Shown here piece by piece: positions 6,618 to 36,230 of a stretch of DNA of 64,000 nucleotides. The stretch is from Nitrospira sp. (GTDB lineage: Bacteria > Nitrospirota > Nitrospiria > Nitrospirales > Nitrospiraceae), in contig CP126122.1 in assembly GCA_030123565.1 (NCBI GenBank), positions 620,001 to 684,000 on the forward strand, in the 5' to 3' direction. Under the pieces are notes generated by a model. The model was not told the origin of the DNA and made no database searches. It saw only the letters and a list, made by a program, of their open reading frames with translations. Position numbers and translations under genes: made by a program. Numbering within the stretch: the first letter of the stretch is position 1; the number at the start of each line of letters is the position of its first letter.

Positions 6618-6679
6618 GAAGAGGCAGTCGAGGCCAAAGCTGTTCTGTTTCTTGGGAGGAAGAACCATGCGCAGTTGAA

Positions 6680-17144: not shown

Positions 17145-17160
17145 GTCGCCACGCTTTTCC

Positions 17161-17256
17161 GGGGACAATGGAGTCTCCGATGGTGCTCCGTATAACTATG
17201 GCGCAGGACAACGACGTCCTCTGATCCACTCCTGTGGGTCCGAGGACGTTTTTTTT
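17161..17256 (+). promoter_or_regulatory. ANTAR-type antitermination leader upstream of nadE
   Basis: Hairpin P1 is GGGGAC-[AATGGA]-GTCTCC at 17161-17178. Hairpin P2 is AGGAC-[AACGAC]-GTCCT at 17205-17220. Both loops have six bases with A at 1 and G at 4, the pattern known for RNA bound by ANTAR-domain proteins. The terminator pairs ACGTCCTC (17214-17221) with GAGGACGT (17242-17249), has an inner GATCCAC/GTGGGTC stem and ends in eight T. P2 and the terminator share ACGTCCT, so they exclude each other: stabilising P2 would let transcription reach nadE. Confidence 0.82.
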
Positions 17257-17328
17257 GGGGACAGCATGCTGAAGCCGGTGATGTGAACGAACTGCTGATG
17301 GCTGAAAGCTGAGGGTTGAGGGCATTGT

Positions 17329-19104
17329 ATGCAGTCGTTACGAATTGCCATGGCCCAGATGAATCCGACGGTCGGTGATCTGTCGGGAAACGTCCGGCGG
17401 ATCGCGGCATGGATGCGTGAGGCACGCCGCGCCCGGGCCGATCTGGTGGCCTTTCCGGAATTGGCCGTCACCGGGTATCCGCCGGAGGATCTCCTGTTCA
17501 AACCCCGTTTCATCGATGATACCGATCGCGCGTTGAAGGCGGTGGCGGCGGAAACGCGCGGGCTGGTGGCCGTGGTCGGCTATGTCGGCCGGGGGACGAC
17601 GACCGCGCCTTCGCCCGACACTGCCTCTCTGCCCTCGACCGGGCGCCATGATCTGTACAATGCGGCGGCCCTACTCTCCGATCGTCGGGTGCTGGCCAGC
17701 TACTGTAAACGCCACTTGCCGAATTACGGAGTCTTCGACGAAAGCCGCTATTTTCAGCCCGGGCTCCGCCTGCCTCTGTTGGTGCTGAACGGCACCATGG
17801 TCGGCGTCAACATTTGTGAAGACATTTGGTTTCCCGAAGGGCCCACTCGGGCGCAGGCTGCGGCTGGCGCCGAGGTGATCGTGAATATCAACGCCTCGCC
17901 GTTCCATGTGGGCAAGGGTCGGATGCGGGAACAGATGCTGGCGACCAGGGCGCGCGACAATCGCGTGATCGTCACCTATACCAATCAGGTCGGCGGACAG
18001 GACGAACTGGTCTTCGACGGCAACAGCGTCATCGTCGATCAGGCCGGCGAGATCATGGCGCGGGGCAAGGCGTTCGAAGAGGACCTCATCATTGCGGATC
18101 TGGATGTCGAGACGGTGGGGCGGACACGTCTGGCGCAGGGCCGTAAGAAACCGCTGCCCCCGCGGGTGGCGGCCCTCATCGACCGGCTTGATGTGCGACT
18201 GCCGGAGAAGAAGTCGCGCTCAATCGTCGTGCCGACATTGGAGCCGCAATTGGATCGGCTCGACGAGGCCTATCGGGCGCTGGTCCTCGGGGTGCGGGAT
18301 TACGTCCGCAAAAACGGGTTCAAACGTGTCGTCATCGGATTGAGCGGCGGCGTGGACTCGGCCTTGACCGCGGTGATCGCCGTCGATGCGCTCGGGGCGG
18401 AGAATGTCCTCGGGGTGTTCATGCCTTCGCCGTACACGTCGCGGGCCAGCCGCGAGGACGTGGCCGACCTGGGCCGCCGGCTTCGCATTCAGGTGGATAC
18501 GCTCTCCATCACGGCGACCTTCAACAGCTACCGGCGCGCGCTTGCCCGTCCCTTCCAAGGCCATCGGCCCGATACGACCGAAGAAAATCTCCAGGCCCGC
18601 ATCAGGGGGAATCTCTTGATGGCCTATTCGAACAAGTTCGGCCATCTCGTGCTGACCACCGGGAACAAGAGTGAGATGAGTGTCGGCTATGCGACGCTAT
18701 ACGGCGACATGGCAGGAGGGTTCGCGGTCATCAAGGATGTGCCGAAGACGATGGTCTATGAATTGTCCCACCTGCGGAATCTCGCGGGGGCTGCCCCGGT
18801 GATTCCGAAACGTATCCTCGACCGGCCTCCCACGGCGGAATTGCGTCCCGATCAAAAGGATGAAGACAATTTGCCGCGCTATGCGGTCTTGGACCCCATC
18901 CTGAAGGCCTATGTGGAGGAAGACCGGGCGCTGGAGGACATCGTGGCCATGGGATTCGACCGGGAGACGGTCGCGCGGGTCATCACATTGGTCGATCGCA
19001 GCGAGTACAAGCGGCGGCAATCGCCGCCCGGGATCAAGATTACGCATCGGGCCTTCGGAAAGGATCGACGGATGCCGATCACCAATGGGTATTGCAACTA
19101 TTAG
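17329..19104 (+). CDS. nadE: Glutamine-dependent NAD+ synthetase
   Basis: A 591-residue two-domain enzyme that amidates nicotinic acid adenine dinucleotide to NAD+ using glutamine. Residues 1 to about 270 form a nitrilase-type glutaminase with Glu in FPELAVTGYPPEDLL, Lys in YCKRHLPNYGVFDE and the nucleophile Cys in VNICEDIWFPEG. The C-terminal half is the ATP-pyrophosphatase synthetase domain with the P-loop IGLSGGVDSALTA. It is preceded by an attenuator-type leader and flanked by two paralogous lipoproteins on the other strand. Conditional termination ahead of a normally essential gene is odd. Confidence 0.95.
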   Translation: MQSLRIAMAQMNPTVGDLSGNVRRIAAWMREARRARADLVAFPELAVTGYPPEDLLFKPRFIDDTDRALKAVAAETRGLVAVVGYVGRGTTTAPSPDTASLPSTGRHDLYNAAALLSDRRVLASYCKRHLPNYGVFDESRYFQPGLRLPLLVLNGTMVGVNICEDIWFPEGPTRAQAAAGAEVIVNINASPFHVGKGRMREQMLATRARDNRVIVTYTNQVGGQDELVFDGNSVIVDQAGEIMARGKAFEEDLIIADLDVETVGRTRLAQGRKKPLPPRVAALIDRLDVRLPEKKSRSIVVPTLEPQLDRLDEAYRALVLGVRDYVRKNGFKRVVIGLSGGVDSALTAVIAVDALGAENVLGVFMPSPYTSRASREDVADLGRRLRIQVDTLSITATFNSYRRALARPFQGHRPDTTEENLQARIRGNLLMAYSNKFGHLVLTTGNKSEMSVGYATLYGDMAGGFAVIKDVPKTMVYELSHLRNLAGAAPVIPKRILDRPPTAELRPDQKDEDNLPRYAVLDPILKAYVEEDRALEDIVAMGFDRETVARVITLVDRSEYKRRQSPPGIKITHRAFGKDRRMPITNGYCNY

Positions 19105-20664: not shown

Positions 20665-21048
20665 ATGACACGGAGCGTGATGGGTTCCGCGATGCAAGTG
20701 CTCAGCGGTGTAGCGACTGTCGTATGGGTCATACTGGCCGGGTGTGCGGGTGATGGTGCGATACCGACTCACCTGGAAAAGCGCTCCGTTGCGAACGGGA
20801 TCGCCGAAGATCATGTTGCGGCGGCACTGTTGTATCAACAGAAAGCCGATCAGTTAAAGAGTGATGCGGCCCGATTGGAACAACAGGCGGAGGGAGTCAC
20901 TCTCCACGAAGATCCCAAAGGGTTTCGGCGAGATGCGCTGCGAACGGCAGCCCAGACGCTACGGCAGGAGGCTTTGGAAATGGAACAGCTCCATGCCGCT
21001 CATGCCGGCATGGTTCAAAGCGTAACCGGGAAGCAACAGCCGCACTAA
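20665..21048 (+). CDS. Small helical lipoprotein, DPKG family member 1
   Basis: A 127-residue protein with a lipobox (VILAGC-A) and an almost wholly helical mature part. It contains DHVAAALLYQQKADQLKSDA, then HEDPKGFRRDALRTAAQTLRQ, and ends GKQQPH. The same plan is seen in the genes at 22677-23084 and 23163-23549: a helix, a DPKG-x-RR turn, and a second helix, suggesting an alpha-helical hairpin. GAGAGGTGA precedes the ATG. Function unknown; a periplasmic or outer-membrane-anchored location is expected. Confidence 0.7.
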   Translation: MTRSVMGSAMQVLSGVATVVWVILAGCAGDGAIPTHLEKRSVANGIAEDHVAAALLYQQKADQLKSDAARLEQQAEGVTLHEDPKGFRRDALRTAAQTLRQEALEMEQLHAAHAGMVQSVTGKQQPH

Positions 21049-21114: not shown

Positions 21115-22035
21115 TTATCCGATTGGGCAGGAGCTCCAATGTAGGTCGCTCTTCTGCACCCACCCTGCTAATCCCTGTTCGGTTCGGATGCGAACATAGA
21201 CGCCATCCAACGGTGTATTTTCCCCAAGCGCCAATTCCGATGTCAATGTTCCAATCACGCGTCCCTCGCCTGGTGTAGCCCGTACAACAACCTCGCTTCG
21301 CTCAAGACCAAGACAGACCAGTGGTGAGATGGCTCCGACCTCCGGTTCGGTTTCATGAGACTGCACAGTTCCAACGGTTGGGTTTTGTCTTGTTGAGTCA
21401 ATCGAATCCTGGGTCGCGGTCCGGACTTCTCGAGGCACCTCTTCAGATTCGAAAGTCGCCGCTCCTTGAAAAGTTGAAGCATCCCTTGCAGGGGGCAGTC
21501 CTTTACTCAGACGGTCGGCAAGCTGCATCAGCACATCTGAAGCCGAGACCGAAGGAGATGGGGTGGGATCATCATGGGTCAGAGTGGCCAGCGTTTCGAC
21601 AAGATACACGCGATATCCGTCACGGTAAGGTTGAAGGCAGGCCGTGTATCGACGGACGGCTTGGAAGTCGCCGTGGATTCCCTCGATCTTCGCCAGAGAG
21701 TGAGGACAGACGACATGCGGGAAGCGCACCGCGCCCAGGTGGTCCAGAGCTAGCACCTTGTACTCGACAAGAAAACCTGAAGGGGTAAGGGGTATCCGGG
21801 TAGGCATGGCCCCCTCGGTGACGGTGGGTGGAGCCTTCAGGACGCGCAAAAAGGAATCCCCGAGGACGTGTGTAATCACATTCGGATCCACGTCGCCGGG
21901 AAGATCATAGGCTTTCGATGTAGCGGGGAGGACGTTCGACTCTACCGGAGATGTCAAGGACGCGCATCCCGTAACGAGGCTGGCGAATCCGAGAAGCAGG
22001 GCAGCATAATTGTTGATCATCCGCCTGGCATGCAT
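21115..22035 (-). CDS. Lipoprotein with C-terminal SH3-like domain
   Basis: A 306-residue lipoprotein (lipobox LVTGC-A) with a strong GAGGAGG before the ATG. The middle part has VICPHSLAKIEG-like and CLQPYRDGYRVYLVETLATL segments of unknown family. The last 65 residues resemble a bacterial SH3 domain (VVVRATPGEGRVIGTLTSE, then GVYVRIRTEQGLAGWVQKSD). It is the only gene directly downstream of two tandem ANTAR-type leaders on the same strand, which suggests a role tied to nitrogen status; that is inference. Confidence 0.72.
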   Translation of the reverse strand: MHARRMINNYAALLLGFASLVTGCASLTSPVESNVLPATSKAYDLPGDVDPNVITHVLGDSFLRVLKAPPTVTEGAMPTRIPLTPSGFLVEYKVLALDHLGAVRFPHVVCPHSLAKIEGIHGDFQAVRRYTACLQPYRDGYRVYLVETLATLTHDDPTPSPSVSASDVLMQLADRLSKGLPPARDASTFQGAATFESEEVPREVRTATQDSIDSTRQNPTVGTVQSHETEPEVGAISPLVCLGLERSEVVVRATPGEGRVIGTLTSELALGENTPLDGVYVRIRTEQGLAGWVQKSDLHWSSCPIG

Positions 22036-22087
22036 GGGGTGCCTCCTCAGGGTTCTTGTTCGTCACTACAGGGGGGCGACTCAAACC

Positions 22088-22174
22088 AAAAAAAACGTCC
22101 TCTGGTCCATAGGACCGGAGGACGTCGTTGTCCGCTTGCCGGGTATCAGCCCGATCGGAGGCGTCATCGCCTCC
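22088..22174 (-). promoter_or_regulatory. ANTAR-type leader, second (gene-proximal) unit
   Basis: Read on the minus strand: P1 is GGAGGC-[GATGAC]-GCCTCC (22174-22157) and P2 is GGAC-[AACGAC]-GTCC (22133-22120). The terminator pairs ACGTCCTC with GAGGACGT around an inner GGTCC/GGACC stem and ends in eight T at 22095-22088. P2 and terminator share the GTCC arm. The P1 loop has G rather than A at position 1 but keeps G4. The unit ends about 50 bases before the lipoprotein start codon. Confidence 0.75.
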
Positions 22175-22190
22175 AAGAATTCATCAGTTC

Positions 22191-22270
22191 AAAAAAAAAA
22201 GGACCTCTGGTCAACTTGACCGGAGGACCTCATCGTCCACTCTCTGCAATGGGGAACGCCGTTGTCTCCC
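22191..22270 (-). promoter_or_regulatory. ANTAR-type leader, first (promoter-proximal) unit
   Basis: Read on the minus strand: P1 is GGGAGAC-[AACGGC]-GTTCCCC (22270-22251), with one mismatch in the stem. P2 is GGAC-[GATGAG]-GTCC (22238-22225). A terminator hairpin built around GGTCAA/TTGACC follows, with ten T at 22200-22191. The second loop lacks A1 but keeps G4. With the next unit this makes two attenuators in series before one lipoprotein gene. Confidence 0.7.
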
Positions 22271-22284
22271 ATCACAATGGCTAA

Positions 22285-22676: not shown

Positions 22677-23084
22677 ATGCACGTACGCATGCGCACGATC
22701 ATAGGTCTCATAGGGCTGGTCGCCCTTGTCGCGGTCGGCCTACCAGCGCTGTGGAATCATCCGGATCTGTCCGGACTCGGTGGCTCCCACGAAGCGATGG
22801 CGGGCGGGGACGTGATGAAAGAAGCGGCTCAGGAACACGTCGATGCCGCGAAAGAGTATGACCGGGAAGCGGAACACCATGAGGCGGAAGCTCAGCGCTA
22901 CGAACAAAAAGCGTCCGCCATTACTCCCCTCATGGATCCGAAAGGGTATCGGCGTGATGGGATGAACATGGCGGCAGATTCACACCGCACCATGGCGAAC
23001 GAACTTCGTTTTCGTGCGAAAGTCCATCGCATCGAGGCTGAATTGTTGATGGAGAAAGGGAAGCAGACGGCCAAAGAGAAGTGA
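22677..23084 (+). CDS. Small helical exported protein, DPKG family member 2
   Basis: A 135-residue protein with an N-terminal hydrophobic segment (IGLIGLVALVAVGLPALW) that acts as a signal or anchor and lacks a lipobox Cys. The rest is charged and helical, with HVDAAKEYDREAEHHEAEAQ, then LMDPKGYRRDGMNMAADSHR. It aligns with the proteins at 20665 and 23163 over the DPKG-x-RR turn. GAGGAGG lies before the ATG. Function unknown; the His/Glu-rich helix could bind metal, but that is speculation. Confidence 0.7.
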   Translation: MHVRMRTIIGLIGLVALVAVGLPALWNHPDLSGLGGSHEAMAGGDVMKEAAQEHVDAAKEYDREAEHHEAEAQRYEQKASAITPLMDPKGYRRDGMNMAADSHRTMANELRFRAKVHRIEAELLMEKGKQTAKEK

Positions 23085-23162: not shown

Positions 23163-23549
23163 TTACTGCGGTTGCTGCTTGCCCAGCATCGTCTGGGCTT
23201 TCTCGTAATGCGCCGCAAAGAGCTGCTGCAATTGGGCTGCGTCGCTCCGTTTTTCTTGAGCCGCCGTCATCAACCCGCCCCGCCGAATTCCCTTGGGATC
23301 TTCAATCGGCTTAATGGTCGCGGCCATGGCCTGAAACTGTTCGGCTTGAGTCTGAACCTTTTTGGCTTGCTGCAAATACAGCAGCGCCGCGGTCATATGG
23401 TCATCAGCCGTCCCTGCGTCGCTGGTGATGCGGTCGGTAAGGTCTGCCGGCAGATCCCGCTGCACGAAGGCCGAGCAACCAGTCGTTCCGACTCCCAGGC
23501 CGGTCAGCGCCAGCAATGTTGCGAATACAAGAGGCATTGTCCGTCTCAT
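23163..23549 (-). CDS. Small helical lipoprotein, DPKG family member 3
   Basis: A 128-residue lipoprotein (VGTTGC-S) with a good AAGGAGG upstream. It matches member 1 closely: DDHMTAALLYLQQAKKVQTQ, IEDPKGIRRGGLMTAAQEKR and a GKQQPQ end. It is on the opposite strand and convergent with member 2. A cluster of three copies within 3 kb points to local duplication and divergence. Confidence 0.72.
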   Translation of the reverse strand: MRRTMPLVFATLLALTGLGVGTTGCSAFVQRDLPADLTDRITSDAGTADDHMTAALLYLQQAKKVQTQAEQFQAMAATIKPIEDPKGIRRGGLMTAAQEKRSDAAQLQQLFAAHYEKAQTMLGKQQPQ

Positions 23550-23693: not shown

Positions 23694-24347
23694 TCAGGAG
23701 TCTGCGCTGATGAGCCCGATGCGGATCGCGTACCGGACGAGGCCGGCAATATCATGAATATCCAGCCGCTGCATCAGCTCGGTTCGATGGGTATCAACGG
23801 TTTTGGCGCTGAGGTTGAGTTTCTGGGCGATGTCCTTGGTTGAGTGACCCTCGGCGACCAATTGGAGGACTTCACGTTGGCGCGGAGTCAGTTCTTGGAT
23901 GGGGCTGGTTTTCATCTCCCGTGGATGCAAGTAGTTCTGTACCACCTGCTTGGAGACGGCAGGGGTGAGATACGTTTCGCCTCGCATGACCGCCTTGATA
24001 GCCAATTCCAGTTCTGCCGGCTCCGCCCCCTTGAGAAGATAGCCGGCCGCTCCAGCCTGGAGGGCCCGCCTGACATATTCCTCATTGGCGTGCATCGAGA
24101 GGACAATGATTCGAGGCGCCGGAGTGAGTTTCACCATTCTGGCCGTCGCCTCCAGGCCATTGAGTTCCGGCATGCCGATATCCATGATCACAATATCAGG
24201 CTGGTGTTGCTCAGCGAGCTGAATGGCCTCATGACCGTTCCCCGCCTCCGCGACGACCTGGACCAGCTCAAGACTTTTTAATAGAGCACGAAGGCCGGCT
24301 CTCATGAGACGGTGATCATCCGCAAGGAGAACCCGAATCGTATTCAT
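23694..24347 (-). CDS. NarL/FixJ-type response regulator
   Basis: A 217-residue transcription factor. The receiver domain has the acidic pair in LLADDHRLMR and the phospho-accepting Asp in DIVIMDIGMPELNG. The output domain is a LuxR-type helix-turn-helix (LTPRQREVLQLVAEGHSTKD, then LSAKTVDTHRTELMQRL). It starts two bases after the histidine kinase stop, so the two are co-transcribed and likely cognate. It has no ANTAR domain, so it is not the protein that would read the leader RNAs. Confidence 0.92.
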   Translation of the reverse strand: MNTIRVLLADDHRLMRAGLRALLKSLELVQVVAEAGNGHEAIQLAEQHQPDIVIMDIGMPELNGLEATARMVKLTPAPRIIVLSMHANEEYVRRALQAGAAGYLLKGAEPAELELAIKAVMRGETYLTPAVSKQVVQNYLHPREMKTSPIQELTPRQREVLQLVAEGHSTKDIAQKLNLSAKTVDTHRTELMQRLDIHDIAGLVRYAIRIGLISADS

Positions 24348-24349
24348 CG

Positions 24350-25786
24350 TTACGTGGAAACCTCAGCCCGAAAGGGTGATGAAAGGGGGGATACAGGAAC
24401 GCGCACTCGGATTTCGGTCCCCTGCCCGGGGTTCGAGTCGATGGAGAGGGAACCGTTCAAGAACCGAATGCGTTCTTGCATTCCGAGCAAGCCCATACTC
24501 TGTCCTCTGCTCGCTTCGGCCAATGCCTTCTGGACCTCGAATCCTCTCCCATTGTCACGGATGAGCAACAGGAGGTCATCCTCCTGTTGCCGTAAAGACA
24601 CGGTCACGCTGCTTGCGTTCGAGTGGCGGATGATATTCGTGACCGCTTCCTGGATCACGCGAAAGCAGGCGATCGCAACGCTTTGCGGCGGCGACAGGAA
24701 CTCGTCCACCTGTACGTCCACCTTCCAGCCGGCTCGCTCGGCTTGGCGACTCAGATACCAACGCACGGCCGGCACGAGTCCAAGGTCATCCAACAGGGAG
24801 GGGCGCAACTCGAGCGAGAGATCGCGGACATATTGCAGGGTTTGGTCGATGACGGTCGAGCTGTCCTTCAGCAGAACCGGGATATCTGCGGTATCACCGC
24901 AACGTTGTATCGTTTGCAGATTCATTTTCACGACCGTGAGGGCTTGACCGATCTCGTCGTGGAGATCAAGCGCCAGGCTGCGACGCTCGCTTTCCTGAAC
25001 CTCCATCAATTGTTGGGAGAGGGCCTGCATGCGCTCATGCGCTTCGCGTAGCGCCAGTTCCGCGCGCCGGCGATTGAGATAGGAGCACAGGCTATCCGCT
25101 AACGAATTAATGAGGTCGCGCTCCTCCGCAAGAAAAGGACCTTCGGCTTCCGGCGGCCTCGCTTCACGGTAGACCACCTCGATCATTCCTTTGGCGCCGT
25201 CCAGCGTGACCCAGGAGGCGGTCTGTTTCCACGGCGACTCAACGAAGGTCGGTGTGGTGAAGACCATGTCGTCAAAGGTAATGCGGGCAAGGGTGATCTC
25301 CGGATATTGCCAGGCTGGAGGCAGCACTGCGACGGTCTGTTTCAACACCTCTTCGATCGGTGTGGCGCTGTCTTGCAGGAGACGCACTGTCCGGTGGAGC
25401 GCGGTCAATTCCTTTACACGCTCGCCGAAAAGGTGGCGGAGTCGTCGCTGTTCTTCGTGATGAATTGTGTCCGCTGGAACCGATGGAGTGACGTGCCTGC
25501 CTTGGAGCTGTCGGAGGAGGGCGATACTTCCCCACAGCAAAGCAATCGTGAGGGCACGGTTACCCAGTGCCGACCAAGCAGGAGGAGTAGAGCCGGAGCG
25601 GAGTGCTCCGATCGAGATCAGGGCCGTTGCGACCGTTGCAAGGAGGATGGGCGCCATCCGGTTTGAGAGAGAGAACGCCAACAGGACTGGGAAGAGATAC
25701 AGACTCCACCAGGTCAAGGCGGGCGGCGAAAGGAAATCGACGACGAAGATCATGCCGGCCATCCCGACCAGCACCATGAGAGTCAT
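24350..25786 (-). CDS. Membrane sensor histidine kinase, NarX/HisKA_3 type
   Basis: A 478-residue kinase. Residues 1 to about 95 hold about four transmembrane segments, followed by a GAF-like region (AVLPPAWQYPEITLARI). The phospho-acceptor His lies in SLALDLHDEIGQALTVVKM, the N box in EAVTNIIRHSNASS, and the ATP-lid in DNGRGFEV and GLLGMQERI. It pairs with the downstream regulator. It is transcribed divergently from the porin-amt operon, so control of that operon is plausible. The signal is unknown. Confidence 0.9.
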   Translation of the reverse strand: MTLMVLVGMAGMIFVVDFLSPPALTWWSLYLFPVLLAFSLSNRMAPILLATVATALISIGALRSGSTPPAWSALGNRALTIALLWGSIALLRQLQGRHVTPSVPADTIHHEEQRRLRHLFGERVKELTALHRTVRLLQDSATPIEEVLKQTVAVLPPAWQYPEITLARITFDDMVFTTPTFVESPWKQTASWVTLDGAKGMIEVVYREARPPEAEGPFLAEERDLINSLADSLCSYLNRRRAELALREAHERMQALSQQLMEVQESERRSLALDLHDEIGQALTVVKMNLQTIQRCGDTADIPVLLKDSSTVIDQTLQYVRDLSLELRPSLLDDLGLVPAVRWYLSRQAERAGWKVDVQVDEFLSPPQSVAIACFRVIQEAVTNIIRHSNASSVTVSLRQQEDDLLLLIRDNGRGFEVQKALAEASRGQSMGLLGMQERIRFLNGSLSIDSNPGQGTEIRVRVPVSPLSSPFRAEVST

Positions 25787-25961: not shown

Positions 25962-25991
25962 TTGACAGCTTGAATGTCGGGATGCTAAAAG
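25962..25991 (+). promoter_or_regulatory. Sigma70-like promoter of the porin-amt leader
   Basis: TTGACA at 25962-25967 and TAAAAG at 25986-25991 are 18 bases apart. The -10 is poor, so an activator may be needed. Transcription would start near 25998, eleven bases before the first leader hairpin. A GATGGTAT direct repeat lies just upstream at 25923-25942. Confidence 0.5.
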
Positions 25992-26008
25992 CGCCCACGA
26001 AATAGGTA

Positions 26009-26100
26009 GGGAAACAAAGGCGTTTCTCTGCCGGTTTGAAAGCACGACGACGGGGACAATGACGTCCTTGGGCCATGAGGGCCTGGGGGCGTTTTTTTTT
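26009..26100 (+). promoter_or_regulatory. ANTAR-type leader of the porin-amt-amt-glnB-glnD operon
   Basis: P1 is GGGAAAC-[AAAGGC]-GTTTCTC (26009-26028) and P2 is GGAC-[AATGAC]-GTCC (26054-26067). Both six-base loops have A1 and G4. The terminator stem runs 26062-26074 against 26080-26092 with 13 consecutive pairs, several G-U, a five-base loop and nine T. P2 and the terminator share ACGTCC, so the two folds exclude each other. It lies about 260 bases upstream of the porin start. Confidence 0.82.
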
Positions 26101-26358: not shown

Positions 26359-27690
26359 ATGCAGGTGGGCACCATACAGGTCCTGTGTGTGTATCTGTTC
26401 ATTTTGCTGATCGGGCCCCTGTTGTTCGGCGGCGAACAAGCCTTAGGGCAGGGGGCCGCACCGGCTCCTGGGTCGACTGCGACGGTGCAGGAGCGACTGG
26501 ATTCCTTAGAGAAGAAAGTGGATGCCCCATCCATCTGGAAGACGTTGGGGTTCAAGGTTTCAGGTTTTCTGGATGTGGCCTATACGCAGAATTTCAACAA
26601 CCCCAACACGAATCTGAACCAACTGCATATTTTCGACACCAACGCCAATGCCTTCATGCCGCACCTGGCGCAGATCATGTTGGAGCGGCCGGCGGATGCG
26701 GGGGGCAGCGCGTTGGAACGAGCCGGATTCCGCGCCAGGTTGAATTTCGGCCTCGATTCCCGGGTGACTCGCGCGCGTACCAATTTTCAAACCGGGACCA
26801 GCAACGATGAAATCGATTTCCAGGAACTCTATGCGGAATACATCCTTCCCGTCGGCAACGGTTTGAAAGTCCAAGCCGGCAAGATGAACACGCTGATCGG
26901 CTATGAGGTCATCAATAGTTTTGAGAACGCAAACTTTTCCCGGTCCTTCATGTTCGGGTTGGGGCAAGCCTTTACCACGACTGGAATCCGATTCACCTAT
27001 ACATTCACCCCAATGGTCACCGCGTCGTTCGGAGTCGTCAACGGCTGGGACAACGTGGACGACAACAACAAGGGCAAGACGATTGAGTATCTGGTGGCCC
27101 TGACTCCCCATGAAAAATTCGGTGTCAGCTGGTACGGCTCCTATGGGCCGGAACAAGCGAATCGGCAATTCGGCGATCTCGCATCAGGAGGCGTACCAGG
27201 GAACCCGTCTGCGAAGCGGTTTGTCAACGGTCTCATCATTTCGATGAAACCGACGGACAAGGACACGATCATTCTGGAACCCTATTACGCGAACGAAGCC
27301 AGCAACCCGGTAGCGGGGAGTACCGGGAAGCCGAATGCGCGCTGGAACGGCCTGGCCGCCTACCTGATCCACGATTTCGACGACCAGTGGAGCTTCCGCC
27401 TCCGTGGAGAAATTTTCGAGGATGCAGGGGGCTTCCGCACCTGTAGTGGAACGTTGAACAACGCGGGGGGCACGAACACGTGCTTCGGAGCGACCAATAC
27501 CACGGCCGCCACGCCGGTCGCCCAGACATTGTGGGAAATCACGCCGACGCTGCAGTTCAAGCCGGCGCCGTCGCTGATCACACGGGTCGAATTCCGGTAT
27601 GACAAGTCGGACAAGAACGTATTCCTTTACGGCAGTAGAGCGGTGAATAACCAGGAGACTCTCTCGTTCGAGGTCATCTACCTGTTCTGA
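26359..27690 (+). CDS. Outer-membrane porin, BBP2/OmpL-like
   Basis: A protein of about 443 residues with a signal peptide ending near GEQALGQ, a short coiled coil (VQERLDSLEKKVD) and a long beta-barrel domain ending YLF. The strand pattern (SFGVVNGWDNVDDNNKGKT and VSWYGSYGPEQ) matches putative beta-barrel porin-2. ATG 26359 has GGAGG at eight bases; ATG 26338 is an alternative, and the frame is open to 26146 without coding character. As first gene of the amt operon it probably lets ammonium or another small nitrogen compound cross the outer membrane. A truncated relative lies at 6680-6976. Confidence 0.82.
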   Translation: MQVGTIQVLCVYLFILLIGPLLFGGEQALGQGAAPAPGSTATVQERLDSLEKKVDAPSIWKTLGFKVSGFLDVAYTQNFNNPNTNLNQLHIFDTNANAFMPHLAQIMLERPADAGGSALERAGFRARLNFGLDSRVTRARTNFQTGTSNDEIDFQELYAEYILPVGNGLKVQAGKMNTLIGYEVINSFENANFSRSFMFGLGQAFTTTGIRFTYTFTPMVTASFGVVNGWDNVDDNNKGKTIEYLVALTPHEKFGVSWYGSYGPEQANRQFGDLASGGVPGNPSAKRFVNGLIISMKPTDKDTIILEPYYANEASNPVAGSTGKPNARWNGLAAYLIHDFDDQWSFRLRGEIFEDAGGFRTCSGTLNNAGGTNTCFGATNTTAATPVAQTLWEITPTLQFKPAPSLITRVEFRYDKSDKNVFLYGSRAVNNQETLSFEVIYLF

Positions 27691-27713: not shown

Positions 27714-29093
27714 ATGGTACGACGATTGCGCTTCATGATGATGATCCTGCCGGTCCTGACCAGCGTTGCGATGATGCTGGGCGTTGCAGGAGTCTGGGCG
27801 CAAGAGACCGCGCCGCCGCCGGTGCCTACGGTACAGGAAATCATAACGGCGCCTGCCCAAGCCCCGCCCAAGATCGATACGGGGGACACGGCCTGGCTGC
27901 TCATATCGACTGCGTTGGTTCTGGCCATGACAGCGCCGGGGCTGGCGCTGTTTTATGGCGGGATGGTGCGCTCGAAGAACGCCCTGGGGACGATCATGCA
28001 GAGTTTCATTATCCTCTGCCTGATCAGTCTCCAATGGGTGTTGTGGGGATATAGTTTGGCGTTCGGACCGGACAAGGGGCATCTCATCGGAGGTCTCGAA
28101 TGGCTTGGCCTCAACGGCGTGGGCTTGGAGCCGAATGCCGACTACGGAGCGACCGTGCCCCATCAGGCCTTCATGATCTTCCAAATGATGTTTGCCGTGA
28201 TCACGCCGGCGCTCATCACCGGCGCCTTTGCGGAACGAATGAAGTTCAGCAGTTTCCTCGTGTTTACCCTCTTGTGGGCGACGCTGATCTATGATCCGCT
28301 GGCCCACTGGGTGTGGGCGGTGGGAGGATGGGTGCGCAATTTGGGCGCGCTGGATTTTGCCGGCGGGACTGTGGTGCACATCAGTTCCGGTGCATCCGCG
28401 TTGGCCTGCGCGATCGTGTTGCGACCGCGATTGGGCCATGGCAAGGAGCACATGGCTCCCCACAATCTGCCGATGACAGTGTTGGGCGCAAGCCTGCTTT
28501 GGTTTGGGTGGTTTGGGTTCAACGCCGGGAGCGCGGTGGCGTCCGGCGCACTGGCGACCAGCGCCTTTGTCGTGACCAACACGGCCACGGCCTCGGCAGC
28601 GCTGTCCTGGATGGTAGTGGAGTGGATGTACCGAGGAAAACCGACGGTGCTCGGGGCAGCGAGTGGCGCGGTCGCAGGACTGGTGGCGATTACCCCGGCG
28701 TCGGGATTTGTCGGGCCGATGCCCTCGATCGTGATCGGTCTCGGGGCAGGGGTGTTCTGCTATCTGGGCGTGTTGTGGAAGGCGAAATGTGGGTACGATG
28801 ATGCCCTCGATGTGGTCGGGATTCACGGGATTGGAGGGATCTGGGGAGCGCTGGCAACAGGTCTCTTTGCGTCAAAGGTGATCAATCCGGCCGGAGCGGA
28901 CGGGTTATTTTTAGGGAATCCTGCGCAACTGGGGATTCAGGCTCTGGCGGTCTTGGTGTCCGTGGTGTTCGCCTTCGTGGGGACCTTCGTGGTGTTGAAG
29001 CTTCTCGATGGGGTGATGGGTCTGCGGGTCAGGGAGGACGAGGAGCGCATGGGATTGGATCTGAGTCAGCACGACGAACGAGCCTATTCGTAG
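27714..29093 (+). CDS. amt: Ammonium transporter Amt, copy 1
   Basis: A 459-residue AmtB-type protein with an N-terminal signal peptide (GVAGVWAQE) and 11 expected membrane helices. Family hallmarks are DTAWLLISTALVLAMT, GLALFYGGMVRSKN, DFAGGTVVHISSGASAL with the first pore His region, and DDALDVVGIHGIGGIWGALA with the second. It lies 24 bases after the porin and just ahead of a second Amt gene. Transport is expected to be gated by the PII protein encoded downstream. Confidence 0.95.
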   Translation: MVRRLRFMMMILPVLTSVAMMLGVAGVWAQETAPPPVPTVQEIITAPAQAPPKIDTGDTAWLLISTALVLAMTAPGLALFYGGMVRSKNALGTIMQSFIILCLISLQWVLWGYSLAFGPDKGHLIGGLEWLGLNGVGLEPNADYGATVPHQAFMIFQMMFAVITPALITGAFAERMKFSSFLVFTLLWATLIYDPLAHWVWAVGGWVRNLGALDFAGGTVVHISSGASALACAIVLRPRLGHGKEHMAPHNLPMTVLGASLLWFGWFGFNAGSAVASGALATSAFVVTNTATASAALSWMVVEWMYRGKPTVLGAASGAVAGLVAITPASGFVGPMPSIVIGLGAGVFCYLGVLWKAKCGYDDALDVVGIHGIGGIWGALATGLFASKVINPAGADGLFLGNPAQLGIQALAVLVSVVFAFVGTFVVLKLLDGVMGLRVREDEERMGLDLSQHDERAYS

Positions 29094-29122
29094 GCGTGAA
29101 GGGACCGGACAGGAGGAGGAAT

Positions 29123-30511
29123 ATGGTGAGTGCCCCTGGCAGAGATCACAGTCGAAAAAACGCAAACCAACCGTGGTTTGGGGTCATCGGTATTGTGATC
29201 CTGGTGTGTTCGTATGCCTGTATCGGGTCGGTCACGATGGCCCAGGACACATCTGCGTTGCCGGCTCCGGTCGCGCCAAACGTCTCCTTGAAAGTGGATT
29301 CAGGGGATACCGCCTGGGTCCTGATCTCCTCTGCGTTGGTGTTGGCGATGCTGATGCCGGGGCTCGCGTTGTTTTACGGCGGACTTGTGCGTACCAAGAA
29401 CGTGCTCGCGACGATCATGCAAAGCGTCATGATCTTGAGCGTGGTCAGCGTGCTGTGGATTCTGTTCGGATACAGTTTGGCGTTCGGGCCGGATAAAGGC
29501 GGGGTGATCGGTGGATTGGAGTGGGTGGGACTGAGCGGGGTCGGCGCCGAGCCGCACCCGACCTATGGGCCGACGATTCCTCACCAGGCGTTCATGCTGT
29601 TTCAGTTGATGTTTGCTGCGATCGCTCCGGCGTTGATCACGGGGGCCTTTGCCGAACGGAAGCGCTTTACGTCGGTCGTGCTCTTCGGTGCGCTTTGGTC
29701 CCTGGTGGTCTATGTGCCGCTGGCGCATTGGATCTGGGGCGGGGGATGGTTGAGCAAATTGGGCGCGTTGGACTTTGCCGGTGGGGCGGTGATCCACATC
29801 AGTTCCGGGGCGTCGGCCCTGGTCTGTGCCGTCGTGCTGGGTCGACGCAGAGGATATGGCACCGATTACATGGCCCCGCACAATCTTCCGATGACATTGC
29901 TCGGAACCGGATTTCTGTGGTTCGGTTGGTTCGGCTTCAACGGAGGCAGCGCGCTAGGAGCCAACGCCATTGCAGTCTCGGCGATCCTCGCGACCCATGC
30001 GGCGGCGGCGATGGGCGCTATGGCCTGGTGTGGAGTTGAGTGGGCGCATCGAGGCAAACCCACGGTGCTCGGTGTCGCCAGCGGCGCCGTGTCCGGATTG
30101 GCGACGGTGACTCCTGCGGCAGGCTATATCAGCCCGCTGTTCGCCATCGTGATCGGTGCCGTGGCAGGCATGGCCTGTTACGCGGCGATTGTCTGGAAGG
30201 GGCGATTCGGCTATGATGACTCGCTTGACGTCGTGGGCATCCACGGAGTGGGAGGGGCGATCGGCATTCTCGCCACAGGACTCTGTGCCAGCAAGGCTGT
30301 GAACCCTGGAGGCGCCGACGGATTGTTATTCGGCAATCCCGGCCTCTTCGGCGTCCAGGTGCTCGTCGTGGCGGTCACGACGATGTTCTCGATGATCGGG
30401 ACCTTTATCATCCTCAAACTGGTCGATTCCATGACGGGGCTGCGGGTGTCTTCCGAGGAAGAAGCGACCGGTCTTGATTTGAGTCAACACAACGAGCGGG
30501 CCTATTCGTGA
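29123..30511 (+). CDS. amt: Ammonium transporter Amt, copy 2
   Basis: A 462-residue Amt paralogous to the upstream copy, sharing DTAWVLISSALVLAM, DFAGGAVIHISSGASAL, DDSLDVVGIHGVGGAIG and the C-terminal GLDLSQHNERAYS. ATG 29123 follows AGGAGGAG at good spacing; a GTG at 29096 is less likely. The longer N-terminus ends in a signal-like SVTMAQD. Two tandem copies with nearly the same tail suggest a local duplication, perhaps for different affinity or PII control. Confidence 0.94.
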   Translation: MVSAPGRDHSRKNANQPWFGVIGIVILVCSYACIGSVTMAQDTSALPAPVAPNVSLKVDSGDTAWVLISSALVLAMLMPGLALFYGGLVRTKNVLATIMQSVMILSVVSVLWILFGYSLAFGPDKGGVIGGLEWVGLSGVGAEPHPTYGPTIPHQAFMLFQLMFAAIAPALITGAFAERKRFTSVVLFGALWSLVVYVPLAHWIWGGGWLSKLGALDFAGGAVIHISSGASALVCAVVLGRRRGYGTDYMAPHNLPMTLLGTGFLWFGWFGFNGGSALGANAIAVSAILATHAAAAMGAMAWCGVEWAHRGKPTVLGVASGAVSGLATVTPAAGYISPLFAIVIGAVAGMACYAAIVWKGRFGYDDSLDVVGIHGVGGAIGILATGLCASKAVNPGGADGLLFGNPGLFGVQVLVVAVTTMFSMIGTFIILKLVDSMTGLRVSSEEEATGLDLSQHNERAYS

Positions 30512-30594: not shown

Positions 30595-30942
<348 letters not shown>

Positions 30943-30944
30943 GT

Positions 30945-33629
30945 ATGTCACAGGCGTTGGATGCAGGTTCACATATGTTGCACGAGACCGCTCCCGTGGC
31001 GTTGTCCGATCTTTTGGTCGAACAGCGCCGGGCGATCGAGCAACGGCTGCTGGCCGGCGCGTCGGGCGACGACGTGGTCAATGCCACCACCGATCTGGTC
31101 GATGGATTGATCGTCGGCCGCTACCGGACTGCGGCCCGAACCGGCGGCGAGGCGCTCACCACGGCTGGATTCCACCATTGTTGTCTGGTGGCGCTCGGAG
31201 GCTACGGCCGGCGCGAATTGGCGCCGCACTCGGATATCGACCTCATGTTCCTGTTTCACCCGGATGCCGCCAAGGTGATTCCCGAGCTGGTGAAGCAGGT
31301 GCTCCACCCCCTGTGGGACAGCGGATTTCAAGTGGGCCACAGTGTCCGTACGATTCAAGACTGTGTGGACTTGGGTCTGGCCGACCTGACGGTTCGGACC
31401 TCGATGATGGAAGCGCGGTTTCTCGCCGGCAGCCCCGAGCTGTTTCAGCGCTTCCATGCACGCTATGTTCGGAAAGTCGTGTCGAGCGGGTTCGACGCGT
31501 ATCTAGCGCAAAAGGTAGCGGAGCGGCAGCGCGAATACCACAAGTTCGGTGAGACCGTGTATTTGCTGGAGCCGAACGTCAAGAAAAGCAAGGGTGGGTT
31601 GCGCGATTTGCATCTCCTGCAGTGGATCGGGTCGGCGCGCTACCATGCGCCGACGATCCGTGAATTGTCCGATCGGGGGATATTGTCCCAAGCCGACTAC
31701 CGGGCGATCAAGGAGGCGCGGGAGTTTCTCCTGCGCGTCCGGTCCTTTCTCCATATCCGTGCCGGCATGGCGCAGGAAATTCTGACCTTCGATGATCAAG
31801 TCTGGTTGGCGAAACAACTGGGCTTTACCGACCGGCCGCATCTGCTCGCCGTCGAGCAGTTCATGCAGCAATACTATCGCCATACCATGGGGCTCCACGT
31901 CGCTTCGATGCGATTTGTCGATCGCTGTCGCCGCCGCTCATTGTGGAAGCGGCTCAGGCAATGGTTGCCGGCCTCGCGCATTGATCACTATTTTGTCGTC
32001 GAGGGCGAGGCGCTGACGGTACCGGTCGAACTGCGCTCCCAGGTGTTGGATCGGCCGGATTCGCTCCTGGCGCTCTTCGACCTGGCGCGAGCGCGCCGGT
32101 TGAACATCGATCCCGCTCTGCTCGAAGACATTCACCGCCATGCGGAAACCTTGTCGGCCGAGCGCTTCCACACGCCGGAGACCGGCCGGACCTTTCTCTC
32201 GATCCTGGCTGGGCCCGGGACGGCGCGGACGTTGGAGGCCATGCATCGCGCGCACCTGTTGGAGAAGCTGGTGCCGGCCTTCTCACGCGTGCGTGGACTG
32301 ATGCAATTCAATCAGTACCATAAGTACACGGTCGATGAGCACAGCCTGCTGGCGGTGGCGAAGGCGGAAGCGCTGGCCGAACATCAAGGGGTGTTGGGGG
32401 ATGTCTATCGAGAAATCAAGCGGAAGGATATTCTGCATTTGGCGCTGCTGCTCCACGATCTGGGGAAGGGGCACGAAGAAGACCACAGCGAAGTCGGCAA
32501 GCGGCTGGCCGAAGACACGGCGGTACGTTTGGGGTTCGATGAACGGGACAGCACCACGCTGACGTTTCTCGTTCACCGTCACCTGTTGATGGCCCATACG
32601 GCCTTCCGCCGCGACCCCTATGATGAAAAGGTGTTGCTGCCGTTCGCGCGAGAGGTGGGCACGCCGGAAGTATTGCGGAAGTTGCTGACCTTGACCGCCG
32701 CGGATATCGCCGCCGTCGGCCCGGAGGTGTTGACGAAATGGAAAGAATCCCTGCTGATCGAGCTGTACCTGCGGGCCATGCAGGAGGTGTCGGGAGAGCG
32801 TGAGACGGCCGATGAGCCCCAGCGGCTCGCTCGGATCGCCGCCGAGGTCGCGGCGCAACAGGATGCCGATCGGGATCTTCCGGCAGAACAGGCTTGGATC
32901 CGGTCGGAGCTCGAACAGTTTCCGTTGCGCTATGTCGACGGGACGTCCCCTCGCCGCATCGCCGCGCATCTGGCCGCGATTCGCCGTCTGGAAGCCGGCG
33001 GCGTCGTCGTCGAGACGGAATTTCACGCGCAATTGGGAACCTGCGAATATACGGTGATCGCGCACAACGACCTGATTCCCGGATTGTTTTCGAAAATCGC
33101 CGGGGTGATGGCGGCGGGTGGGTTGCAGATTCTGGATGCGCAGATCGTCACGCGCAAAGACGGGGTGGTCGTGGATACCTTTCAGGTCGCCGATCCGGAC
33201 TATCAAGGCGCGCCTCCCGTGAATCGGCGCGAGTCGATCGGCGACACCATCACGCAGGTGTTGACCGGTCGCCAGACCATTGAGACGGTGATGCGTCGCG
33301 GGGCCCGTCTCAACATGGGACGGCCTCTGCCGGCGCATCGGCAGCCGGCGGAGGTGCGGATCGACAATGAAACGTCCGACCGGTTCACCATTCTGGATAT
33401 CTTTGCGGACGACCGGCAGGGGTTGCTGTACGTCATCACCAATGCGATTTTTCAGTTGGGCCTCTCGGTCCATGCGTCGCGAATTTCCACCCGTCTGGAT
33501 CAGGTGGCGGACGTGTTCTATGTGACCAGTATGGAGGGCAAGAAGGTGGAGGAGGCTGATCGCCTGGAATCGATCCGGGTGGCGATTCTCAGGGAGATCG
33601 AGATGTTTCTCGGTGCGGATGCAGCGTAA
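30945..33629 (+). CDS. glnD: Bifunctional PII uridylyltransferase/uridylyl-removing enzyme
   Basis: An 894-residue sensor of glutamine that uridylylates and deuridylylates PII. The nucleotidyltransferase motif ALGGYGRRELAPHSDIDLMF lies near residues 83-102, and an HD phosphohydrolase motif (LLLHDLGKGHEEDHSE) near residue 500. Two ACT domains follow, beginning near CEYTVIAHNDLIPGLFSKIA and RFTILDIFADDRQGLLYV. It starts three bases after glnB, so PII and its modifying enzyme are probably translated together. Confidence 0.95.
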   Translation: MSQALDAGSHMLHETAPVALSDLLVEQRRAIEQRLLAGASGDDVVNATTDLVDGLIVGRYRTAARTGGEALTTAGFHHCCLVALGGYGRRELAPHSDIDLMFLFHPDAAKVIPELVKQVLHPLWDSGFQVGHSVRTIQDCVDLGLADLTVRTSMMEARFLAGSPELFQRFHARYVRKVVSSGFDAYLAQKVAERQREYHKFGETVYLLEPNVKKSKGGLRDLHLLQWIGSARYHAPTIRELSDRGILSQADYRAIKEAREFLLRVRSFLHIRAGMAQEILTFDDQVWLAKQLGFTDRPHLLAVEQFMQQYYRHTMGLHVASMRFVDRCRRRSLWKRLRQWLPASRIDHYFVVEGEALTVPVELRSQVLDRPDSLLALFDLARARRLNIDPALLEDIHRHAETLSAERFHTPETGRTFLSILAGPGTARTLEAMHRAHLLEKLVPAFSRVRGLMQFNQYHKYTVDEHSLLAVAKAEALAEHQGVLGDVYREIKRKDILHLALLLHDLGKGHEEDHSEVGKRLAEDTAVRLGFDERDSTTLTFLVHRHLLMAHTAFRRDPYDEKVLLPFAREVGTPEVLRKLLTLTAADIAAVGPEVLTKWKESLLIELYLRAMQEVSGERETADEPQRLARIAAEVAAQQDADRDLPAEQAWIRSELEQFPLRYVDGTSPRRIAAHLAAIRRLEAGGVVVETEFHAQLGTCEYTVIAHNDLIPGLFSKIAGVMAAGGLQILDAQIVTRKDGVVVDTFQVADPDYQGAPPVNRRESIGDTITQVLTGRQTIETVMRRGARLNMGRPLPAHRQPAEVRIDNETSDRFTILDIFADDRQGLLYVITNAIFQLGLSVHASRISTRLDQVADVFYVTSMEGKKVEEADRLESIRVAILREIEMFLGADAA

Positions 33630-33680: not shown

Positions 33681-35090
33681 ATGAACGTTCGTGAGGTGTT
33701 GGATTTCGCAAAGAAAAACAAGGTCCAGGTTGTGGACATGAAGTTCGTGGACCTCATCGGGACCTGGCAGCATTTCACCATTCCGGTCAGCGAACTGACG
33801 GAAGGCCTGTTCAAGGACGGTTCCGGACTCGACGGTTCGTCGATCCGCGGCTGGAAAGCGATCAACAACAGCGACATGCTGCTCGTGCCCGACCCGACGA
33901 CCGCCTGTCTGGATCCGTTTTGTTCCATCCCGACGTTGAGCCTCGTCGGCAACGTCGTCGATCCGATCACGCGTGAAACCTACGACCGTGACCCGCGATT
34001 CATCGCGCAGAAGGCGGAGAAATATCTCCAGAGCACCAAGATCGGCGACACCTCCTACTGGGGGCCGGAAGCCGAATTTTTCATCTTCGACCATGCACGC
34101 TATGACCAGACGAACCACAGCGCCTACTACTACATCGATTCCGACGAAGGCGTCTGGAACATGGGCCAGGAAGGCGTCAACCTGGGCGGCAAGATCCGCC
34201 ACAAGGAAGGGTACTTCCCGGTTCCTCCGACCGATACCCAGCAGGACATCCGCACGGAAATGATCCTCGAAATGGAAAAGGCGGGCATCGCCACCGAGAA
34301 ACACCACCACGAAGTGGCCACGGCAGGTCAGGCGGAAATCGACATCCGCTTCGACAGCCTGGTGAGGACCGCCGATAAAATGATGATGTTCAAGTACATC
34401 GTCAAGAACGTCGCGCGGCGGCACGGCAAGACCGTCACCTTCATGCCGAAACCGATCTTCGGCGACAACGGTTCGGGCATGCATACCCATCAGAGCATCT
34501 GGAAAGAGGGGAAGCCCCTGTTCGCCGGGAAGGAATATGCCGGGGTGTCACAGATGTGCCTGCACTACATCGGCGGGATTCTGAAACATGCGCCGGCCTT
34601 GGCCGCCTTCACCAACCCCTCGACGAACTCTTACAAGCGGTTGACGCCGGGGTTCGAAGCGCCGGTATTGCTGGCCTATTCGAGCCGGAACCGGTCGGCC
34701 GGCATCAGGATTCCCATGTACTCGCCAAGCCCGAAGGCGAAGCGCATCGAGGTGCGGTTCCCGGACCCTGCCGCCAATCCTTATCTGGCCTTTTCCGCCA
34801 TGCTCATGGCCGGTTTGGACGGGATCGAAAACAAGATCAACCCGGGGGAGCCGGCCGAGAAGGACCTGTACGATCTCGAAGCCAAGGAGGCGGCCAAGAT
34901 CCGTACCATGCCGGGTAGTTTGGACGAGGCGCTTAGCCACCTGGAGAAGGACCATCAGTTCCTGCTCAAGGGCGGGGTGTTCAGCGAAGACTTGATCGAG
35001 GCCTGGATCGGATATAAGCGCAGCAAAGAAGTGGATACGATGCGGTTGCGGCCGCATCCCTATGAGTTCTTCCTGTATTACGACGTGTAG
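33681..35090 (+). CDS. glnA: Glutamine synthetase, type I
   Basis: A 469-residue GSI enzyme that makes glutamine from glutamate and ammonium. Typical segments are [39 protein letters not shown] and [19 protein letters not shown]. The adenylylation loop reads [12 protein letters not shown] with Tyr at residue 397, the same number as in E. coli, so control by a GlnE-type enzyme is expected. GAAAGGAGGAGG precedes the ATG, 51 bases after glnD. Confidence 0.97.
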
Positions 35091-35146: not shown

Positions 35147-35165
35147 TGGCGGCTGTGGACGCAAG

Positions 35166-35260
35166 CAGGCAACGGCGCCTGAGTTGAGCCCACAACACAA
35201 CGTGTAAACGGACAAAGGCGTCCGTCATTCTTGCGAGAGTGGCGGACGCCTTCTTGTTTT
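35166..35260 (+). promoter_or_regulatory. ANTAR-type leader, first unit, before the nitrite transporter
   Basis: P1 is CAGGC-[AACGGC]-GCCTG (35166-35181) and P2 is ACGGAC-[AAAGGC]-GTCCGT (35208-35225). Both loops have A1 and G4. The terminator pairs AGGCGTCCG (35216-35224) with CGGACGCCT (35243-35251) and ends TCTTGTTTT. It shares the P2 loop and 3' arm, so P2 and terminator exclude each other. Confidence 0.82.
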
Positions 35261-35262
35261 CA

Positions 35263-35365
35263 GCCGACGCTGCGGTCGGCCTCCTCGATCGGACGGGGCG
35301 TTGGAAGCCTCGTTGAGCAGGACAACGACGTCCTCTTCCCGGCAGCGGGATGAGGACGTTTTTTT
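35263..35365 (+). promoter_or_regulatory. ANTAR-type leader, second unit, before the nitrite transporter
   Basis: P1 is GCCGAC-[GCTGCG]-GTCGGC (35263-35280) and P2 is AGGAC-[AACGAC]-GTCCT (35319-35334). The terminator pairs ACGTCCTC (35328-35335) with GAGGACGT (35352-35359), with an inner TCCCG/CGGGA stem, and ends in seven T. The P1 loop keeps G4 but has G at position 1. This unit follows the first with two bases between them, giving two attenuators in series. Confidence 0.75.
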
Positions 35366-35399
35366 GAGTCAGGCGCATCGGCCAGAGGAGGGAGAGCCC

Positions 35400-36230
35400 A
35401 TGCATACAGCGGATCACGAACGGATCGCAGCGGTGGCGACTAAGAAGTGGTCGTTCTGTGAGCAATCGCCGGGCGGCTATCTCATCCTGTCCGCCTTGGC
35501 GGGAATCTATCTCGGCTTCGGGATCGCGCTGATCTTCAGTATCGGTGGTCCCTTGGCGGCGGCCGGGTCCCCCTTGGTCAAACTCATCATGGGGGCATCC
35601 TTCGGGATTGCGTTGACCCTGGTGATCTTTGCTGGATCGGAATTGTTCACCGGCAACAACCTGGTCGGCGCCATCGCGGGCCTATCGAAAAGCCTCTCCT
35701 GGACACAGGTTGTTCAGCTGAATGCCTGGTCGTGGCTGGGGAATCTGGCCGGGTCCTTGGGGTTGGCCTGGCTGGTCATTCAATCCGGTGTGTTCGCCAA
35801 GGGGCCGACGACGGAGCTGATCGAGAAGGTGGCGGCGGTCAAGATGTCGCTTCCGGCCTGGGAACTGTTCGTGCGGGGGATTCTCTGTAATTGGCTGATC
35901 TGTTTGGCGGTCTGGATGGCGGGGCGGACGAGCAATGACGCGGCGAAGATCCTCCTGATTTTCTGGTGCCTGTTCGCGTTCATCGGCATCGGCTTCGAGC
36001 ACAGCATCGCGAATCAATCGTTCCTAGGCATGGCGCTTTTCCTGCCGCATGACGCAGCCGTCAACTGGGCGGGTTTTTGGTACAACCAGGCCTTCGTCGT
36101 CCTGGGCAACATCGTCGGCGGCGGGTTGTTTGTCGGCGGGCTCTATTGGCTGGTGAGCCCCTATCGCATGACCGAAACGCAGGTGGCGTCGGCGGTTCAA
36201 TCGGTTGGTCCGGCAGTCGTCAGATCGTAA
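35400..36230 (+). CDS. Formate/nitrite transporter family protein, likely nitrite uptake
   Basis: A 276-residue FNT-family pentameric channel with about six membrane helices. Family parts include GGYLILSALAGIYLGFGIAL, FAGSELFTGNNLVGAIAGL, WLGNLAGSLGLAWL, RGILCNWLICLAVWMAGRT and GFEHSIANQSFLGMALF. ATG 35400 is preceded by GAGGAGGGAG; the open frame reaches back to 35301, through the leader terminator, which is not coding. With cynS and nirA downstream, nitrite is the likely substrate, as in NirC. Confidence 0.9.
   Translation: MHTADHERIAAVATKKWSFCEQSPGGYLILSALAGIYLGFGIALIFSIGGPLAAAGSPLVKLIMGASFGIALTLVIFAGSELFTGNNLVGAIAGLSKSLSWTQVVQLNAWSWLGNLAGSLGLAWLVIQSGVFAKGPTTELIEKVAAVKMSLPAWELFVRGILCNWLICLAVWMAGRTSNDAAKILLIFWCLFAFIGIGFEHSIANQSFLGMALFLPHDAAVNWAGFWYNQAFVVLGNIVGGGLFVGGLYWLVSPYRMTETQVASAVQSVGPAVVRS

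Follow-up and report, generated by a model that had tools for sequence, protein, structure and literature searches.

Leader RNAs of the ANTAR type and a single GAF-GAF-ANTAR protein as a probable nitrogen-acquisition switch in Nitrospira

How are the genes for ammonium uptake controlled in Nitrospira, a main nitrite oxidiser? The question is raised by the region ahead of the porin-amt-amt-glnB-glnD operon of Nitrospira sp. (GenBank assembly GCA_030123565.1), for which an initial annotation had proposed control by an RNA antiterminator of the ANTAR type. The operon lies in the window, by which we mean the whole 64,000-nt stretch of DNA that was analysed (contig CP126122.1, positions 620,001 to 684,000). 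Positions below are those of the window, except where marked as contig positions (C1). The leader ahead of the operon contains the following elements:

25962-25991, + strand: sigma70-like promoter with TTGACA (25962-25967), an 18-nt spacer and TAAAAG (25986-25991).
26005-26032, + strand: P1 hairpin, hexaloop AAAGGC (26016-26021) on a C:G closing pair; from the fold, covariation and covariance models.
26033-26052, + strand: long P1-P2 linker, 20-21 nt outside the full stems.
26053-26068, + strand: P2 hairpin, hexaloop AATGAC (26058-26063), with a 3' arm common to the terminator.
26061-26100, + strand: intrinsic terminator, 14-pair stem (26061-26093) and T9 (26092-26100); from the fold and a terminator scan.

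The promoter, with a TG one base ahead of its imperfect -10 box, and P2 were identified by reading the sequence. Such direct reading also found P1, P2, the terminator and its nine T where the initial annotation had located them; only the stem of the terminator differs, with 14 pairs in the scan and not 13. The P1 core, GGGAAAC-AAAGGC-GTTTCTC (26009-26028), belongs to a stem of 11 pairs spanning 26005-26032, and the P2 core is GGAC-AATGAC-GTCC (26054-26067). The sharing of ACGTCC between P2 and the terminator was borne out at 26062-26067, the 3' arm of P2 being the 5' arm of the terminator. Taken alone, the amt leader folds with a z-score of -3.6 against shuffles, and its preferred fold combines P1 with the terminator. 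P2 alone is worth -6.3 kcal/mol and the terminator -22.8 kcal/mol, suggesting that the unaided RNA should terminate.

The leader thus combines two hexaloop hairpins with A1/G4 loops and a C:G closing pair, an overlap of P2 with the terminator, and an ANTAR protein encoded by a single gene in the same island, in agreement with the ANTAR-type reading; the 20-21 nt between P1 and P2 exceed the 5-12 nt linker of eut-like RNAs. Judged from sequence, all features that can be tested in this way identify it as an ANTAR attenuator, save the eut linker length, a limit demonstrated for EutV and not known to define the family. Rfam gave no ANTAR match for the window at the gathering threshold, and a related-locus search with Amt1 mostly returned distant Amt loci, uninformative for the leader. 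Rfam did match RF02514 (5' ureB sRNA) at 9134-9432 on the - strand, antisense to ureC, which probably stems from conservation of the coding sequence and not from a genuine antisense RNA.

We propose that the amt leader is an ANTAR attenuator and that a GAF-GAF-ANTAR protein opens this and all sister leaders according to nitrogen status, as the cell's nitrogen-acquisition switch, a reading that we hold to be very probable. Transcription from the sigma70 promoter would begin a few bases ahead of P1 and, unless prevented, stop at the terminator (26061-26100). An active ANTAR dimer would bind the P1 and P2 hexaloops, each with its G4, on the nascent RNA and keep P2 folded, thereby withholding ACGTCC from the terminator, and the polymerase would then continue into porin-amt-amt-glnB-glnD (and perhaps glnA). 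The same protein would open the leaders ahead of porin-urt, nadE, a lipoprotein gene and nirC-cynS-nirA, and read-through would be expected under ammonium limitation.

Nineteen leaders, collected by similarity and a hexaloop descriptor, were aligned by hand, and RNAalifold recovered P1 and the terminator from this alignment, with both sides changed in 15 of 21 pairs. P2 and terminator columns overlap, so covariation was counted on the terminator form. In this structure (P1 and terminator), 96% of cells pair, no shuffle out of 500 reached the observed covariation score, and pairing falls to about 53% when partners are shifted by one column. G4 and the P1 closing C:G pair are invariant (19/19). 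A covariance model (R1), run over the whole 4.62 Mb genome, gave seven matches at E<=3e-5, all in one 37-kb island, with noise starting at E 0.04. The R1 seed included sequences from this genome, and we therefore seeded an independent model (R2) with 11 leaders taken from other genomes, with no amt leader and no sequence of this genome. On the window, R2 scores the amt leader at 58.1 bits (E 2.3e-11) and also finds five other leader units.

The genome encodes exactly one ANTAR gene (PF03861, E 4e-19), at C1:616974-618230, which places it 1.8 kb before the window and some 1.1 kb ahead of the first leader. Seven ANTAR leaders lie between C1:619349 and C1:655367, all at most 37 kb from this gene. 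The sisters of the amt leader, at C1:619349 (just before the window), 17156, 22087/22192 (- strand) and 35160/35278, were absent from the initial annotation. Together the leaders precede porin-urt, nadE, an SH3-like lipoprotein gene (in tandem), porin-amt-amt-glnB-glnD and nirC-cynS-nirA (in tandem):

C1:619349-619450, just outside the window: ANTAR leader ahead of porin-urt (R1).
23-877, + strand: porin gene following that leader, 3' part (Pfam), then urtABC and a urea ABC ATPase.
17156-17257, + strand: ANTAR leader ahead of nadE (R1; R2, E 2e-13).
17329-19104, + strand: NadE, glutamine-dependent NAD synthetase (Pfam/NCBIfam).
22192-22274, - strand: first tandem leader of the lipoprotein gene, P2 loop GATGAG (R1; R2, E 5e-14).
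22087-22179, - strand: second tandem leader of the lipoprotein gene (R1; R2, E 3e-16).
21115-22035, - strand: ORF behind the tandem leader, putative SH3-like lipoprotein (named from its sequence).
26362-27690, + strand: porin (BBP2), first gene after the amt leader (Pfam).
27714-29093, + strand: Amt1 ammonium transporter (Pfam).
29096-30511, + strand: Amt2 ammonium transporter (Pfam).
30604-30942, + strand: GlnB (PII) (Pfam, NCBIfam).
30945-33629, + strand: GlnD (Pfam).
33681-35090, + strand: GlnA (Pfam), 51 nt after glnD and possibly in the same operon.
35160-35257, + strand: first tandem leader of nirC-cynS-nirA (R1, R2), with a promoter TTGACG-17-TATATA upstream.
35278-35367, + strand: second tandem leader of nirC-cynS-nirA, a weaker match (R1 and R2, E 3e-5 and 3e-6).
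35394-36230, + strand: NirC-like formate/nitrite transporter (Pfam/NCBIfam).
36283-36726, + strand: cyanase CynS, named by close similarity to a scanned cyanase.
36969-38579, + strand: assimilatory nitrite reductase NirA (Pfam/NCBIfam).

The lipoprotein ORF (21115-22035) had no Pfam or NCBIfam match. Three small related ORFs with a DPKGxRR motif and alanine-rich helices lie near it (20665-21048, +; 22677-23084, +; 23163-23549, -). The G in place of A at hexaloop position 1 (GATGAG, GATGAC) recurs in lipoprotein leaders, namely 22192-22274 (-) here and those of loci L018 and L019.

A single protein faces seven leaders here, two tandem pairs among them, and terminated leader RNAs might also titrate the ANTAR protein as decoys, in the manner of EutX or Rli55, so that the leaders would buffer each other; single hexaloops can indeed bind EutV (PMC8934654). 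We consider this quite unlikely, as a target gene follows each leader immediately, a free-standing leader is found only as a relic in one genome (G185, below), and the terminator uses up P2 in terminated transcripts.

The regulon extends well beyond this genome. Each of the 29 genomes of its genus carries a single ANTAR gene and 1-7 leaders. Across 295 genomes of the phylum, R1 finds leaders in 69 and 117 carry an ANTAR gene, with both present in 68 of the 69 (Fisher p 2e-33, a value that ignores the relatedness of the genomes); the ANTAR genomes lacking an R1 match are mostly distant ones, where R1 may be blind. Against this background, the idea of an ordinary terminator or ligand-free attenuator, with P1 and P2 hexaloops that no ANTAR protein recognises, appears extremely unlikely: it would account for the strong terminator of the amt leader, but not for a P1 with a fixed loop that covaries upstream of it, nor for leaders whose occurrence in 295 genomes follows that of the ANTAR gene and which lie clustered close to it. 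The sole leader-bearing genome without an intact ANTAR gene (G185) has an ANTAR pseudogene and an orphan leader.

In 60 fetched regions, R1 gave 132 matches, 126 of which were taken as 99 leaders, and the genes downstream are nearly all nitrogen genes: 25 leaders precede nadE (often nadE-amt-glnB-glnD), 17 porin-urt, 11 porin-amt-glnB and 16 nirC. Other leaders stand ahead of genes for cyanase, the lipoprotein or a binding protein resembling NMT1/NrtA; in a different family of the order, the target is a sigma54 activator. In these last cases (loci L282, L288 and L291, order f2) the activator has no receiver domain and two of the leaders are upstream of nirC; a cascade from antitermination to sigma54 is possible there. 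Tandem leaders are found at 12 of 16 nirC leaders and at none of the 53 nadE, urt and amt leaders, and a double gate ahead of nitrite assimilation would fit a cell that burns nitrite. Tandem attenuators also occur at NrtA-like, cynS and lipoprotein targets and nowhere else, except for one pair before an Amt gene (genome G004).

Most of the 99 leaders are immediately preceded by sigma70-like boxes spaced 17 or 18 nt apart, and a -24/-12 consensus search of the amt-leader region found no match, so that the absence of a sigma54 promoter, as first annotated, holds; rpoN is nonetheless encoded in the genome. The initial annotation had further suggested a second layer of control by the divergent two-component system. 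That this NarL-type system (23694-25786), which adjoins the amt promoter with its imperfect -10 box, is the real amt regulator and the leader secondary is very unlikely in our view: only the closely related G021 and G017 have close kinase and regulator homologues beside their amt leader, whereas leaders and ANTAR gene are found genus-wide. This limited distribution speaks against a second control layer, and we also rejected the system as a fixed partner of the amt leader.

Both hairpins were recovered by script in 113 of 125 leaders. G4 is present in all P1 and all P2 loops (113/113 each) and A1 in 95 of 113 P1 and 103 of 113 P2 loops (84-91%, the rest having G), counts that are conditional since the script required G4, A or G at P1 position 1, and C:G in P2. 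A C:G pair closes P1 in 110 of 113 leaders, P2 is GGAC/GTCC in 116 of 125, and the GTCC arm can pair with both its P2 and its terminator partners in 118 of 125. The loops agree with the A1/G4 rule, and the P1 closing pair agrees with the C:G that selection with NasR yielded (PMC7496416). Only in one tested feature do the leaders depart from studied ANTAR RNAs, namely the linker, whose median length is 24 nt (113 leaders) and which has 20-25 nt in the amt leader. In eut RNAs a 14-nt linker breaks induction, and lengthening the linker by 20 nt abolishes antitermination in vitro (PMC8934654 for the latter); measured against these limits, the Nitrospira linkers count against the proposed antitermination. 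We rejected linker structure as an explanation for the long spacing, as linkers fold hardly better than shuffled sequences (mean z -0.38).

What could the regulator sense? Pfam and PDB sequence matches give the domain order GAF-GAF-ANTAR, with neither a REC nor a NIT domain found besides the two GAFs; it therefore does not belong with the EutV-type two-component ANTAR regulators (REC plus kinase). Its ANTAR domain aligns with those of Rv1626, EutV and NasR. The EutV RNA contacts R142, K143, K147, Y164, M172, N173 and R175 correspond to R, K, R/K, F/Y, M, D/N and R in 49 Nitrospirota proteins (R360, K361, R365, F/Y382, M390, D/N391 and R393); EutV R168 and R177 are replaced by Q and S, and Rv1626 has Q and T. 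PtsP (EI-Ntr) GAFs are among the best PDB structure matches of the first GAF, and the EI-Ntr GAF is reported to bind glutamine in several bacteria (PMC4848567). On this resemblance, the GAF pair most likely responds to nitrogen status, by way of glutamine or 2-oxoglutarate.

Alternatively, the GAF pair might open all leaders in response to nitrite or nitrate, as substrate induction of the NasR kind. This would suit the nirC-cynS-nirA target and has a precedent in NasR, a nitrate-sensing ANTAR protein (PMC7496416). We nevertheless find it unlikely: nitrite induction would not explain the ammonium and urea uptake, PII, GlnD and nadE targets, the protein has GAF domains only and no NIT domain, and to a nitrite oxidiser, always exposed to nitrite, such a signal would carry little information.

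How new is control by nitrogen status through such leaders? The placement of ammonium uptake, PII and GlnD behind an antiterminator had been annotated as unusual. Yet Ramesh et al. 2012 (PMC3369931) had already described ANTAR RNAs in front of genes for P-II, nitrite reductase and glutamine synthase and for transporters of ammonium, urea and nitrite. The two-hairpin RNAs of that study (eutP/eutG/eutS/eutA, nasF, amiE) share with the Nitrospira leaders the two A1/G4 hexaloops, the C:G closing pair and the mutual exclusion of P2 and terminator, together with a genomic ANTAR gene and nitrogen targets including P-II and ammonium transporters. The Nitrospira system differs in its linkers (median 24 nt vs 5-12), in P1 stems of up to 11-12 pairs, in an occasional G at loop position 1, and in two GAFs instead of a REC, NIT or AmiR-type pseudo-receiver domain. 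Desulfotomaculum acetoxidans, of another phylum, likewise has at least 13 ANTAR attenuators at six nitrogen units, several per unit (Ramesh et al. 2012, Fig. 9); here, in contrast, one regulator and seven leaders share a 37-kb island, and nadE, the lipoprotein gene and cynS are included. Klebsiella NasR/nasF (PMC7496416) is also a one-component ANTAR antitermination system of nitrogen assimilation, with similar ANTAR helices, but NasR senses nitrate or nitrite through a NIT domain and controls nasF, whereas the Nitrospira protein has GAF sensors and covers ammonium, urea, nitrite and cyanate routes.

The genes themselves (AmtB, GlnB, GlnD, GlnA, NadE, NirC, CynS, NirA, urt and urease) make up a published Nitrospira island, reduced in comammox, which the section around Fig. 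3 of PMC6311188 describes by its genes and not by their control. Our literature search turned up no study of ANTAR or antitermination for Nitrospira, and Ramesh et al. 2012 had no characterised example of the GAF-ANTAR class (PMC3369931). As far as the literature searched shows, the compact one-protein regulon, the GAF-GAF sensor with long-linker leaders, and the decay of the system in ammonia oxidisers (below) are new. For Nitrospira, this provides a concrete, testable nitrogen-acquisition switch that would join ammonium, urea, nitrite and cyanate routes with PII and NAD synthesis; the GAF-ANTAR class gains more than 100 candidate RNA targets with strong covariation, and the 24-nt linkers offer a test for the successive-binding model of EutV.

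The decay is seen in the 31 genomes of the family that carry the AMO family (amoA). In genus g2, all 25 amoA genomes lack the ANTAR gene, as do two further genomes with amoB (27/27 amo-positive) and three more in which neither amoA nor amoB was found, and amoA was found in none of the nine ANTAR-positive genomes. In genus g4, six amo-positive genomes keep the ANTAR gene with 0-1 leader, the retained one, where examined, being that of porin-amt-glnB-glnD; four amo-negative genomes have 3-6. Few evolutionary events lie behind this pattern, so that p values overstate the case. The review PMC6311188 reports Rh transporters in clade A comammox, Amt transporters in clade B, and an absence of nitrite assimilation; on these grounds, amo-positive g2 genomes are probably clade A and amo-positive g4 genomes clade B. 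The prediction from the loss pattern is that, with ammonia as energy source, there is no more need to ration its uptake. Tentatively, and with somewhat more doubt than belief, we extend the proposal to the genus at large: the GAF-GAF-ANTAR protein would gate all canonical Nitrospira nitrogen acquisition via long-linker leaders, their spacing at odds with the EutV rule, with another dimer-RNA geometry, and the system would have been dismantled in ammonia-burning lineages, lost in amo-positive g2 with a pseudogene intermediate and reduced in amo-positive g4 to the porin-amt-glnB leader or none.

The amo-positive g2 genomes examined have nadE-glnB-glnA with no leader and no Amt or GlnD between, with the exception of G185. 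There, the ANTAR gene is reduced to a stub that contains an in-frame stop, Amt2 is broken, and the single leader has no gene behind it (ANTAR and Amt2 pseudogenes, L336 ~4285-4470 and 6388-7816; orphan leader, L294 7077-7175, - strand). G185, the one leader-bearing genome of the 295 without an intact ANTAR gene, is an intermediate in the loss of the regulon.
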